A stretch of 64,000 nucleotides of DNA from contig MEOG01000105.1 of NCBI GenBank assembly GCA_001769125.1, positions 62,001-126,000 on the forward strand, read 5' to 3'. The notes under the pieces were generated by a model. It was not told the DNA's origin and made no database searches. It saw nothing but the letters and a program-made list of their open reading frames with translations. Each line of letters opens with the position of its first letter. The stretch's first letter is position 1. Shown piece by piece: positions 11,304 through 38,063 of this stretch. Source of the DNA: Bacteroidetes bacterium GWF2_35_48. GTDB lineage: Bacteria > Bacteroidota > Bacteroidia > Bacteroidales > GWF2-35-48. A program made the position numbers and the translations under genes.

Positions 11304-12467
11304 ATGGCAAAGAAAGCAAGTCCACTTAAAAAAGCAGCTCCTGCAAAAAAGGCAAGTTCAGCTAAAAAAGCAGCTCCGGCTAAGAAGTCAGCTCCGGCTA
11401 AGAAGTCAGCTCCGGCTAAGAAGTCAGCTCCGGTTAAGAAGTCAGCTCCGGTTAAGAAGACAGCCCCGGCTAAGAAAATAGTAGCAGCTAAAAAATCAAC
11501 ACCTGTTAAAAAAGTTGTATCAACAAAGAAAGCTGCTCCGGCAAAGAAAACTGCTCCAGTAAAGAAAACTGTTCCAGTAAAGAAAGCTCCGGCTAAAAAA
11601 GCTGCGCCAATAAAGAAAGTTTCGGCTAAAAAAGTGACTCCGGCTAAAAAAGTTGCGCCAATAAAGAAAGCTCCAACTAAAAAAGTGACTCCGGCTAAAA
11701 AAGCTGCGCCAATAAAAAAAGTTCCTGTAAAGAAAGCAGCTCCTGTAAAGAAAGCAGCTCCTGTAAAGAAAGCAGTTCCAGTAAAAAAAGCAGCTCCTGT
11801 AAAGAAAGCGATTCCGGTCAAAAAAACAGCTCCTGTTAAAAAGGCTGAACTCATGAAGAAAGCGGCTTCTGTTAAAAAAGTTACTCCTGTTAAAAAGGCT
11901 GAACCCGTGAAGAATGTAATACCGGCAAAAAAGGTTGCAGAGGTTAAAAAAGTTGTACCAAGTCCAAAACCAAGTCCAGCTCCAATATCAAAATCATTAC
12001 TGAAAACAGAACCTTCTGTAAAAACAACACCTGTTAAAGAAAAAGTAGTAGAAAAAAAAATGATGGCACCAAAACAGACAAAATCAGAAGAACCCGAAAA
12101 AGTAAGATATGCAGATGTAGAATTAGCTGAATTTAAAAATCTTCTCAACGAAAAACTTAATAAAGCTCAACAGGAATATGATGTTCTCAGAAAAGCACTT
12201 TCTCAAAGCGACAGTAATGATACGCTGGACACATCTCCTACCTTTAAAATACTGGAGGAAGGCGCTTCTGTTTTGTCAAAAGAAGAAGCTGGGAATCTAG
12301 CACAGCGTCAGTTGAAATTCATACAGCACCTTAAAGCAGCTCTTATTCGTATTGAAAATAAAACCTATGGAGTTTGTAGGGAAACAGGAAAATTAATTCC
12401 TAAAGAACGATTAATGGCTGTTCCTCATGCAACGCTTAGTATTGAAGCAAAATTGAAACAACGATAA
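11304..12467 (+). CDS. Histone-H1-like Lys/Ala/Pro tail fused to a DksA/TraR-type domain
   Basis: The 387-residue protein has two parts. Residues 1 to ~225 are an almost pure run of degenerate KKAAPxKK-type units (about 40), strongly basic and resembling the C-terminal tail of histone H1. Residues ~266-387 form a TraR/DksA-like domain: a coiled-coil pair (ELAEFKNLLNEKLNKAQQEY, LAQRQLKFIQHLKAALIRIE) and a C-terminal zinc-finger-shaped segment YGVCRETGKLIPKERLMAVP. Only one of the usual four cysteines remains, so zinc binding is unlikely, as in other Bacteroidota members of this family. DksA proteins bind the RNA polymerase secondary channel; a DNA-binding tail could hold it on the nucleoid, which is inference. 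It lies 29 bp after ileS and is closed by a terminator. A 296-codon antisense frame here only mirrors the repeats. Confidence 0.85.
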   Translation: MAKKASPLKKAAPAKKASSAKKAAPAKKSAPAKKSAPAKKSAPVKKSAPVKKTAPAKKIVAAKKSTPVKKVVSTKKAAPAKKTAPVKKTVPVKKAPAKKAAPIKKVSAKKVTPAKKVAPIKKAPTKKVTPAKKAAPIKKVPVKKAAPVKKAAPVKKAVPVKKAAPVKKAIPVKKTAPVKKAELMKKAASVKKVTPVKKAEPVKNVIPAKKVAEVKKVVPSPKPSPAPISKSLLKTEPSVKTTPVKEKVVEKKMMAPKQTKSEEPEKVRYADVELAEFKNLLNEKLNKAQQEYDVLRKALSQSDSNDTLDTSPTFKILEEGASVLSKEEAGNLAQRQLKFIQHLKAALIRIENKTYGVCRETGKLIPKERLMAVPHATLSIEAKLKQR

Positions 12468-27615: not shown

Positions 27616-27760
27616 AGTGTTTGTTTTTTTTGATTATATTACAAAGATAATAAGAATTTTATTAATGGATGGAAATTTTCATTACATTATTGCGTTGAAA
27701 TTATTTCTACGCCGGGAATGTTTGTATATTTGTATTTTAATTAATAGATTGTTCGTAATT

Positions 27761-27943
27761 CAACCCCTTCAGGGTTGCTATATGAGTAGTGATTATTAAC
27801 CATTGGTGCAACCAATGGTTAATAATATTCAAGTCCTTCGGACTTGCACATGCATTAAAAGCCTGAAAGGCTTTAATCTAAATAGCCATCGGTGCATCCG
27901 ATGGCGTATAATAATCAATAATAACACAACCCTGAAAGGGTTG
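27761..27943. repeat. Hairpin cluster upstream of the IS200-like transposase
   Basis: Within the 344-bp gap before the transposase lie five hairpins: CAACCC/GGGTTG (27761-27777), a 13-bp perfect arm pair ATTAACCATTGGT/ACCAATGGTTAAT around GCA (27795-27823), AAGTCCTTCGGACTT (27831-27845), the two-hairpin module AAAGCCT/AGGCTTT plus GCCATCGG/CCGATGGC (27854-27910), and CAACCC/GGGTTG again (27927-27943). The 57-bp module recurs with only three changes after the gene. No other gene is present in this gap. Confidence 0.85.
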
Positions 27944-28477
27944 AATAAAACAACAACATATGAGCACATACACACAAATTATCTATCAAATAGTATTTGG
28001 TCCAAAAAATAATGAAAAGACACTTACTAAAAAAGACAGAGCTGAACTATTCAAATATATTTCCGGTATTATTAGCAATAAAAAATGCCATTTGTATCAG
28101 ATTAATGGAGTTGAAGATCATATTCATATTGTAACACATCTTCATCCTTCAGTTGCTTTGGCTTCACTAATAAAAGATATTAAAGTTGCTAGTTCAATTT
28201 TTATCCGCAAAGCCAATTTATTTCAATCTTTTTCGGGTTGGCAAGACGGATATGGCGCATTTACTTATTCAATAAAAGAAAAAGACAGGCTTATAAATTA
28301 TGTGAAAAATCAGGAAACGCATCACAAGTCAAAAATATTAAGAGATGAAATGATTGATTTATTAAATGAGCACGGCATAGAATTCGACGAGAAGTACTTA
28401 TTGTAATAATTTAACCTTTCATTAAAAGCCTGAAAGGCTTTAATATAAATAGCCATCGGTGCAACCGATGGCATATA
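27854..28477 (+). mobile_element. RAYT/IS200-like unit bounded by two 57-bp hairpin modules
   Basis: The span from the left module (27854) to the right module (28477) is the most economical definition of a mobile or once-mobile unit: direct copies of a 57-bp sequence with two hairpins (54 of 57 identical), enclosing one transposase gene. Direct rather than inverted ends fit the IS200/IS605 mechanism. The exact cleavage sites cannot be read from one copy. Confidence 0.65.
27960..28406 (+). CDS. IS200-like / REP-associated tyrosine transposase
   Basis: A 148-residue Y1 single-strand transposase of the IS200/TnpA_REP type. It has the HUH metal motif HIH (H54, H56 in GVEDHIHIV), the catalytic tyrosine Y114 in YVKNQETHH, and the Bacteroidota-type C-terminus EMIDLLNEHGIEFDEKYLL. 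Such enzymes cut and join single-stranded DNA at hairpins. The gene is intact from ATG 27960. It is flanked on both sides by the same 57-bp two-hairpin module (27854-27910 and 28421-28477), and on the right by a nine-unit hairpin array. This is the organisation expected of a RAYT and its REP substrates, or an IS200-like element whose ends have been amplified. No second gene (TnpB) is present. Confidence 0.92.
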   Translation: MSTYTQIIYQIVFGPKNNEKTLTKKDRAELFKYISGIISNKKCHLYQINGVEDHIHIVTHLHPSVALASLIKDIKVASSIFIRKANLFQSFSGWQDGYGAFTYSIKEKDRLINYVKNQETHHKSKILRDEMIDLLNEHGIEFDEKYLL

Positions 28478-28661
28478 ATCGGTGCAACCGATGGCATATA
28501 ATCGGTGCAACCGATGGCATATAATCGGTGCAACCGATGGCATATAATAGGAGCAACCGATGGCATATAATCGGAGCAACCGATGGCATATAATAGGAGC
28601 AACCGATGGCATATAATCGGTGCAACCGATGGCATATAATCGGTGCAACCGATAGCGTATA
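28455..28661. repeat. Nine-unit 23-bp tandem array of hairpins
   Basis: Nine head-to-tail 23-bp units, atcggtgcaaccgat plus ggcatata, run from 28455 to 28661. Each unit can fold (ATCGGT-GCA-ACCGAT). Units 5, 6 and 7 differ in the left arm (ataggagc, atcggagc, ataggagc) and unit 9 ends gatagcgtata. There are no spacers of independent sequence, so this is not CRISPR. The first unit belongs to the right-hand module of the transposase locus, so the array appears to have grown from that hairpin. Translating the array in any frame gives only repeat peptides. Confidence 0.9.
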
Positions 28662-28700
28662 ATAATGAATAACAATATTTGCACAATAACATAATGAATA

Positions 28701-36138: not shown

Positions 36139-36791
36139 GTTTCTCTTACACCTTTCTTACACCTTTTTCTGAAATTGGTTTTTTTTAGTTTTTCTACCCC
36201 GATAACAATTTTGGGTTGAATTTAGAAAAAAGTTTGTATTGTTTTTCTTGTAATATTAATTCTTTGCCATATTATTTGTCTTCTTTTCTGGTTAGGGTTT
36301 AAACATGCAGATGGGTGGATGACTCAAATAAATATTGACCCTGTGAAAAATAGTTTTGAAGTTCACTTGTAGCCAGTGCCAGAAATTTCACATAGTAATT
36401 AATTATAAAAACCCTTTTAGGTATAGTTTGTTGCCAAGTCAGGAGTTCTAAATCTATAAAAAGGAATTCAATAGATGTACAATAGTGCAACGATAGATGT
36501 ACAATTGTTGATTTGATAGATGTACAATTGTTGATTTGATAGGTGTACAATTGTTGATTTGATAGGTGTACAATTGTTGATTTGATAGGTGTACAATTGT
36601 TGATTTGATAGATGTACAATTGTTGATTTGATAGATGTACAATTGTTGATTTGATAGATGTACAATTGTTGATTTGATAGATGTACAATTGTTGATTCGA
36701 TAGATGTACAATTGTATTTCTACTGTATTCCTACTGTATTCCAATTGAACCCCAATCTAATTCCTAATTCCTAATTCTTAATTCCTAATTC
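36139..36791. other. 653-bp gene-free region between tRNA-Pro and the sugar transporter
   Basis: No integrase or other gene is present although it lies beside a tRNA. It holds the repeated words cttacacctttcttacacc (36146-36165), the 23-bp tandem array (36469-36715) and a run of aattccta/aattctta words (36761-36800) right at the 3' end of the transporter gene. Frames on the minus strand across the array encode only repeat peptides. Confidence 0.7.
36469..36715. repeat. 23-bp direct-repeat array (iteron-like minisatellite)
   Basis: Nine complete 23-bp units (gatagatgtacaattgttgattt) run from 36492 to 36698, preceded by one degenerate unit and followed by a 17-bp partial one. Three neighbouring units (36538-36606) share gataggtg instead of gatagatg, and the last full unit ends in c. 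Each unit carries the dyads TGTACA and ACAATTGT. No spacers, so it is not CRISPR. It follows the 3' end of the sugar-transporter operon. Confidence 0.92.
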
Positions 36792-38063
36792 TTAATTCTC
36801 TCTCCTCTCCCTTACCAACAGCCAAAGTACAGCAGAAATACTCAATGAAACAGCGCTTATTATAAAAATTATTGTTTTACTATCTGCATTTTGAATTATA
36901 TTTCCTAAAAACAAACTAACAATCAATTGAGGTATTACAATGGAAAGATTAAAAATTCCCATAAATAATCCCATCCTGCTTTTATCAACAAGTTCAGACA
37001 TAATTGCAAAAGGAAGACTTACAACTACTGCCCAACCTACACCAATAATAACCATGAGAATATAAAGCATTACAGAACTGTTTCCAAATAAAACAATTCC
37101 CCAGTACCCAAGTGCCATAATGGCAATACATAGCATGTGCGTTTTCACACGTCCGATTTTTTCTGTGATCGGCTCTAATATGGGCGCAGGAAGAATAAAG
37201 CCTACTGTATTTAATATAGCAAATGCAATGGCAATAATTTTACCAACTTCGTTTTTTTGCGCATTATTCAGCAGGCTCATATCGGTAATGTTAAATTGAA
37301 ACTGGCAGATGTATACAAAAATAAAAACAAACATGGTTTGCACGCCCAGCCAAGTAAACGAATGTGCGAAATACAGCTTCAGAAGCTGGTTCCAGTTTGC
37401 TTTTGTTTTAGCGGGAATCGGGATATCTGAACTTGCATTTTTTTCTTTTTCATTTTTATATTCTTTAATAAAAAAGATTGGAATAACTGAAAACAAAAGT
37501 ACTATTACTGCACCCGAATAAATCAAAAAATAATTACCGAAAATCGCACCGACAACATAAGCTAAAACTCCAAAAAAGCCCGAAATTGTTTGCATCCAGG
37601 TGTAGCCTTTTGTGCGGGGTGTTCCTTCGGGAGTAACATCTGCAATAACAGATCGGGTTGGATTAAAACTTATGTTAATAGCCATATCGAGCGTTACAGC
37701 AACAATAATTGCTACAGCCATTAAGTTTCCAATACCCAAAAAATTATTTATTTTATCAATGTTTGGAAGTGCAATAACCATAAGGGCTGCAAGCGTGCCG
37801 CCTATTAAAACAAAAGGTCTTCTTCTTCCGCCCCAGAACCATACTTTGTCGCTTATAAAGCCTATTATTACCTGACCTAAAATTCCCGCGATAGGTCCTG
37901 CTGCCCATACAATTCCTACTTCGTGTATGTCGAGATTGTATTTTGTACTTAATATCCAACTTAAAACTGCAATCTGGATAGAAAGCGCAAATCCCATTGC
38001 TGTAGCCGGAAGCGACAATAAAACATAAAATAAATTGCTGAGTTTTTTTTGTATTTGTAGCAT
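36792..38063 (-). CDS. SLC45-like MFS sugar transporter
   Basis: A 423-residue major-facilitator protein with twelve predicted helices. The cytoplasmic loop 2-3 motif GFISDKVWFWGGRRRPFVLI (residues ~66-85) and the NPTRSVIADVTPEGTPRTKG segment are characteristic of the SLC45/plant sucrose carrier-like group used by Bacteroidota for malto-oligosaccharides or maltose. It would import the sugars released in the periplasm across the inner membrane, most likely with a cation. ATG 38063 is the start. It is the last gene of the minus-strand starch locus, 22 bp after the amylase gene, and in many Bacteroidota the same pair occurs together. The gene end abuts the repeat-rich region. Confidence 0.9.
   Translation of the reverse strand: MLQIQKKLSNLFYVLLSLPATAMGFALSIQIAVLSWILSTKYNLDIHEVGIVWAAGPIAGILGQVIIGFISDKVWFWGGRRRPFVLIGGTLAALMVIALPNIDKINNFLGIGNLMAVAIIVAVTLDMAINISFNPTRSVIADVTPEGTPRTKGYTWMQTISGFFGVLAYVVGAIFGNYFLIYSGAVIVLLFSVIPIFFIKEYKNEKEKNASSDIPIPAKTKANWNQLLKLYFAHSFTWLGVQTMFVFIFVYICQFQFNITDMSLLNNAQKNEVGKIIAIAFAILNTVGFILPAPILEPITEKIGRVKTHMLCIAIMALGYWGIVLFGNSSVMLYILMVIIGVGWAVVVSLPFAIMSELVDKSRMGLFMGIFNLSIVIPQLIVSLFLGNIIQNADSKTIIFIISAVSLSISAVLWLLVRERREN

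Follow-up and report, generated by a model that had tools for sequence, protein, structure and literature searches.

Inverted three-hairpin modules around TnpA-Y1 subclass 1.2 transposase genes: a probable REPtron-like locus in Bacteroidota

In the REPtron/RAYT systems (TnpA-REP with REP, REPIN and BIME sequences), a Y1/HUH gene of low copy number is accompanied by inverted hairpin repeats on both sides, gene-free inverted doublets, dispersed copies and alternating arrays. The protein carries the motif Y--NP (YI--NP), and the hairpins are 5'-tagged with GTAG or GTGG. Elements of the IS200/IS605 type, such as IS608 and ISDra2, are multicopy and identical, with a YxxxQ motif, terminal hairpins and direct ends. 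REPtrons of subclass 2.6, from Bacteroidetes, show atypical secondary structures around a Y1 gene whose product contains NH[LIV]H and YIH[QN]NP, while TIRYT is marked by GGGG[AT][CG]A[CG] inverted repeats and an HTH tail. TnpA-Y1 subclass 1.2 comprises proteins of ~148 aa from Bacteroidetes that carry DH[IV]H, WQ and Y---Q--HH and occur in low copy number; REP sequences are not listed for them, nor in general are terminal structures of the IS200 type (Quentin et al. 2018, PMC6006769). Since the subclass had been described as closely related to IS200 transposases but devoid of REP or IS-type ends, its role was open.

We analysed a stretch of 64,000 nucleotides from Bacteroidetes bacterium GWF2_35_48 (contig MEOG01000105.1), hereafter the window, which contains a Y1 gene amid hairpins. 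The locus comprises the following features (h1 to h3, hairpins; R1, covariance model; CM, its score; coordinates of the window):

27753..27853, minus strand: right-end-type module, the minus strand reading h3-h2-h1 (CM R1, 74.2 bits); h1 27761-27777, h2 27792-27826, h3 27830-27846
27851..27951, plus strand: left-end module (CM R1, 90.2 bits; one of the 30 sequences used to build R1); h3 27858-27874, linker ~27875-27884, h2 27885-27905, h1 27927-27943, then GAATAAA
27960-28406, plus strand: Y1/HUH transposase ORF of 148 aa with subclass-1.2 motifs (PF01797 and NF033573 above cut-off)
28418..28479, plus strand: second left-type module in direct orientation, without h1 (CM, 55.7 bits); h3 28425-28441, h2 28452-28472
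28455..28663, plus strand: tandem array of 9.1 copies of the 23-bp unit ATCGGTGCAACCGATGGCATATA with 95% matches, grown from h2 (TRF)

Clustering of hairpins at this locus is not due to chance, because 13 of the 27 short hairpins of the 64-kb window fall within 0.9 kb (27.76-28.66 kb). An initial annotation had described an IS200-like transposase gene, a two-hairpin module before and after it with three differences, and expansion of the right copy to nine 23-bp units, some with arm changes. These observations were reproduced: the ORF encodes a Y1 transposase according to PF01797 (81.7 bits, cut-off 23), the gene is flanked by a two-hairpin repeat of 60 bp in direct orientation (27853-27912 and 28420-28479, 57/60 identities), and the array is present as listed, its units 5, 6 and 7 carrying uncompensated arm changes. 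The hairpins further upstream had been taken to be of different sequence, but represent an inverse copy of this three-hairpin module: those at 27761-27846 match the next module in inverse orientation, and a blastn comparison of the upstream region with the own genome pairs it by forward and reverse matches with two transposase-free copies. Neither do matching modules on both sides represent the usual layout, since an inverted right end is the rule. In this respect the window copy is atypical, its right module being a direct repeat of the left one where an inverted right end would be expected.

The window protein passed the IS200/IS605 transposase model NF033573 with 61.1 bits (cut-off 55). Its catalytic residues are intact, and an alignment shows H54/H56 (HUH), Y114, Q118 and H121-H122 to be invariant across 18 relatives. 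The tyrosine motif reads YVKNQETHH, and the motifs DHIH, WQ and Y---Q--HH as well as the length of 148 aa match subclass 1.2 (DH[IV]H, WQ, Y---Q--HH). By motifs and length, the protein appears to fit this subclass, which is also described with a specific C-terminal domain of 30 residues; in the window protein, a C-terminal helix is predicted at residues 127-137. A domain search found no second domain in the 148 aa. The AlphaFold model (pLDDT 88.7) retrieved TnpA of IS608 and ISDra2 as top Foldseek matches; these two are nearest by sequence and by model comparison, with the RAYT structure 4er8 lower in the list. The RAYT identity initially proposed had to be given up, and membership in RAYT/TnpA-REP (class 2) was rejected: the window clade has Y---Q--HH with invariant Q118 rather than Y--NP, the RAYT model NF047646 (NCBIfam REP_Tyr_transpos) yields 18.7 bits, far below its cut-off of 80, and the hairpins carry neither GTAG nor GTGG but GAAT beside the foot. 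TIRYT was likewise dismissed, as the module consensus differs from its repeats and the 148 aa showed no second domain. The own genome encodes four more full relatives with at most 42% identity, each amid hairpins of other sequence. In addition, on contig C140 a full Y1 gene is immediately preceded by the truncated start of another, amid hairpin repeats, as if one Y1 copy had landed in another.

The conserved module spans ~95 nt and reads h3-linker-h2-spacer-h1, with GNA triloops. The consensus of 30 modules, which were picked by perfect stems and are biased toward these, is AA.CCC-GAA-GGG.TT for h3 followed by the linker AATNTGAATA[AG], CCCCG.AT-GNA-AT.CGGGG for h2, the spacer, and CAACCCC-GAA-GGGGTTGAAT for h1. 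Because of this bias, the covariation test was redone on the 150 best matches of R1, which are model-fitted and therefore lean toward structure: 97.3% of cells pair, double-changed cells amount to 633 as compared to 159.9 in shuffles, with double changes at 19/21 pairs, and the covariation score reaches 0.583 versus 0.188 upon shuffling and at most 0.07 for slid structures. The diversity of pair types (61 distinct types versus 43.5) is harder to explain by model fitting. GNA triloops dominate one strand (138/170, 137/165 and 121/163, i.e. about four in five) and almost never occur in the reverse form, and G-T wobble pairs account for ~3%; strand bias and rare wobbles lean toward a fold adopted by DNA, short of proof. 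Column counts place GAAT 3' of the hairpin foot (ATTC on the opposite strand) and revealed no conserved motif in the flanks outside h3, where element ends or a target site were sought. No report of these modules was found in open-licence papers.

Across 81 loci (80 named loci plus the window), hairpin density is 2.27 per 200 nt adjoining the gene as compared to 0.22 far away. The nearest upstream module, present in 72 of the 79 testable loci, is in + orientation in 65 cases and in - orientation in seven, and frequently ends no more than ~10 nt from the start codon. Downstream, the module closest to the gene is -, that is inverted, in 52/57 loci and + in five. Gene-free + - doublets are mostly separated by 3-17 nt, whereas - + gaps vary widely, indicating that the unit is left-(gene)-right; doublets of this kind and single modules are also found away from genes. 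At one locus (L112), a single gene is surrounded by at least 15 modules that mostly alternate in orientation, forming a BIME-like array. R1-type flanks fall on a single protein clade (79/80 rows, 0/500 shuffles; support 100/100 in a tree of 148 columns, bootstrap not settled). The same gene clade keeps the predicted fold in Bacteroidota and neighbouring phyla, while stem sequences vary freely. More distant subclass-1.2 genes possess a simpler set, often two 5-bp hairpins ~51 nt apart per side, with GNA loops on the left and the reverse on the right. The lack of terminal structures reported for subclass 1.2 does not hold in view of the paired modules in the clade and the two-hairpin sets in distant members; it is a reported negative rather than a defining trait of the protein. 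At the level of sequence, this shows that a transposase group reported without such ends does have them.

Occurrence of the module was assessed in a class sample of 395 genomes, counting a module as strong at E up to 1e-6 and clade membership at E up to 1e-44. Strong modules occur in 21/24 genomes with the clade but in 18/371 without it (Fisher p ~3e-21), counts that rest on searches with rough E-values and on genome groups read by hand from two tables. This association is partly built in, because R1 was trained in part on gene-flanking modules of the same genomes; its independent part is the unlinked modules on other contigs (e.g. in G090, G006 and G387). According to the initial annotation, hairpins in genomes lacking the transposase would speak against its reading, and here the outcome is mixed: the structure is present in the 18 genomes without the close clade, of which 15 carry a distant subclass-1.2 gene, two carry other Y1 genes, and one, G035, has modules and no detectable Y1 gene. 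The assignment of the hairpins to the transposase as its own gains support from the module type tracking one protein clade and flanking nearly every member. In G001, modules are almost confined to gene flanks, apart from one gene-free doublet; this and the case of G035 weigh against the REPtron-like reading given below. Members are carried, for example, by Pedobacter puniceum and Dyadobacter. A plasmid search returned two distant Bacteroidota matches and no member from cyanobacteria, the source of the other half of subclass 1.2.

The exact 21-mer hairpin is limited to the two sites in the window, with no further site in the genome at up to two mismatches, but homologous, non-identical modules do occur elsewhere, and the blastn search with the upstream region detected transposase-free copies at C25:16640-16729 and C17:10943-11035. 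In the own genome, R1 has 28 matches with E no higher than 0.01, but the weaker ones mostly belong to different dispersed repeats that have the h3-linker-h2 part in common with the module; a loose loop-pattern search of the genome for hairpins gave matches mostly due to chance. One dispersed repeat of ~170 bp (L209-L221; e.g. C8:3841-3943, C25:352-428, C65:20558-20634) starts h3-linker-h2-like with CGACTCC..GGAGTCG-AATGTTTATAA-CCCCGAGC.., a start joined to the long inverted repeat GATTTTGGCGGAAAATTTGC..GCAAATTTTGTGACAAAATC, and some of its copies are bounded by CTACCGTGTGGACAC and its reverse complement. Two further similar ~170-bp repeats at different places (C44:6294-6396 and C8:57662-57766) begin with TAGATTCGAC and end with GTCGAATAACTA; they likely represent a non-autonomous element with inverted ends.

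Taken as a whole, the locus is in our view probably a REPtron-like locus of TnpA-Y1 subclass 1.2, in which the gene sits between a left and an inverted right three-hairpin end, the hairpins are recognized by the protein, and the array arose by slippage. Fold, covariation, inverted layout, gene-free copies and the tie of module type to clade are seen in the sequences, and from these we infer binding, cutting and spread. The layout, including gene-free inverted doublets, dispersed copies, alternating arrays and low gene copy number, is that of REPtrons, although there are three hairpins per module here; length, motifs, low copy number and Bacteroidetes host are those of subclass 1.2, unlike whose published account we find paired hairpin modules, in Bacteroidota as well as neighbouring phyla. 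Subclass 2.6 shares the unusual structures around the gene and differs in its protein motifs. The modules thereby provide a candidate substrate with a clear consensus for subclass 1.2, and the REPtron layout is extended from class 2 to class 1 enzymes.

Mechanistically, the protein would bind the module when it is single-stranded and folded, the lagging strand being the probable site. It would recognize shape, loop and linker and not the sequence of the stems, and would cut and rejoin near the hairpin feet, allowing gene-free modules to spread in trans. In 29 elements with both ends parsed, left and right stems are not more alike within than between elements (h2, 0.522 versus 0.494, p 0.18), whereas linkers are (0.684 versus 0.612, 0/2000 permutations), a signal to which shared genome base composition could add. 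Unlike stems and like linkers at the two ends of one element suggest that shape is recognized together with a single-strand motif, the linker. Mobility of the element is likewise presumed from sequence comparison. A pair of closely similar copies in G001 has left end and gene in common (88.8% over 609 nt), but the right ends are unlike with the fold kept; hence left end, gene and right end may not be mobilized as a single unit. More tentatively, and with slightly less than even confidence, we propose a distinct class of single-strand transposon ends read by shape, which might be made up of three hairpins a fixed distance apart, with GNA loops and a single unpaired linker; the stems would be free provided that they pair, and could differ even from one end of an element to the other. 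Because the stems covary freely, recognition of fold as opposed to sequence by such an enzyme becomes a testable question.

An ordinary IS200/IS605-type insertion sequence, with the modules as its subterminal hairpins, is an unlikely alternative. It would agree with the enzyme class and catalytic fold, the score of NF033573, the YxxxQ motif, the proximity of the IS608 and ISDra2 TnpA folds, the presence of terminal hairpins and the joint duplication of left end and gene in G001. However, the ends of the clade are inverted and not direct, the window itself being the exception, near-identical copies are missing from the own genome, where the best paralogue is 42% identical, each end has three hairpins, and gene-free doublets exist. 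Still less probable is a function of the hairpins in RNA, as leader, attenuator or terminators controlling the gene and its neighbours. The short distance of many left modules to the start codon, ~10 nt or less, and an excess of terminator-like sites over shuffles (four found, mean 0.6) would be in line with such a role, but the right end corresponds to the opposite strand of the left one, its loops being complementary, so that transcripts of the two ends differ; moreover, gene-free copies exist, wobble pairs are rare and an Rfam search gave no match.

With regard to the window, the REPtron-like reading implies that the canonical right end is missing or that a direct copy of the left end took its place. 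The middle hairpin of this copy would then have expanded to nine 23-bp units, with replication slippage at hairpin DNA as the most likely cause. The initial annotation had instead proposed that the transposase amplified its own substrate in place, which we regard as improbable for this array. Recurrence of tandem hairpin-unit expansion near these genes, at unrelated loci, upholds part of that idea: arrays are 3.7-fold denser near clade genes than far away (0.47 versus 0.12 per kb) and more often built of hairpins (20/35 versus 5/42), which indicates that in-place growth recurs. However, the full 9-bp stem is kept by the first unit alone; since the duplication begins inside the left arm, the other eight of the nine are missing the three outer pairs, and units 5, 6 and 7 retain 4, 5 and 4 of 6 pairs. 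The array thus resembles truncated-hairpin slippage and not substrate made by a transposase. Hairpins by themselves promote slippage, and the periods of other arrays (29, 66-75) correspond to the spacing of similar hairpins within a module, which would fit slippage from one such hairpin to another. Most simply, the window array would be a slippage minisatellite, which slippage accounts for without an enzyme, even if the enzyme may play a role. Recurrent hairpin arrays offer a system for separating slippage from transposase-made amplification.

Other repeats were noted alongside. On contig C64, tandemly arrayed hairpin units of the type CAGTCCGCTTTAGCG.. adjoin another Y1 gene and run into an N stretch of the assembly. 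The window contains a second 23-bp array at 36471-36715 (10.7 copies of ATAGATGTACAATTGTTGATTTG, with the palindrome ACAATTGT), located between a tRNA-like gene and a transporter ORF (36792-38063, minus strand). Finally, a 387-aa ORF at 11304-12467 encodes a long Lys/Ala/Pro repeat (KKAAPAKK), after which the C-terminal part (YGVCRETGKLIPKERLMAVPHA) is non-repetitive.
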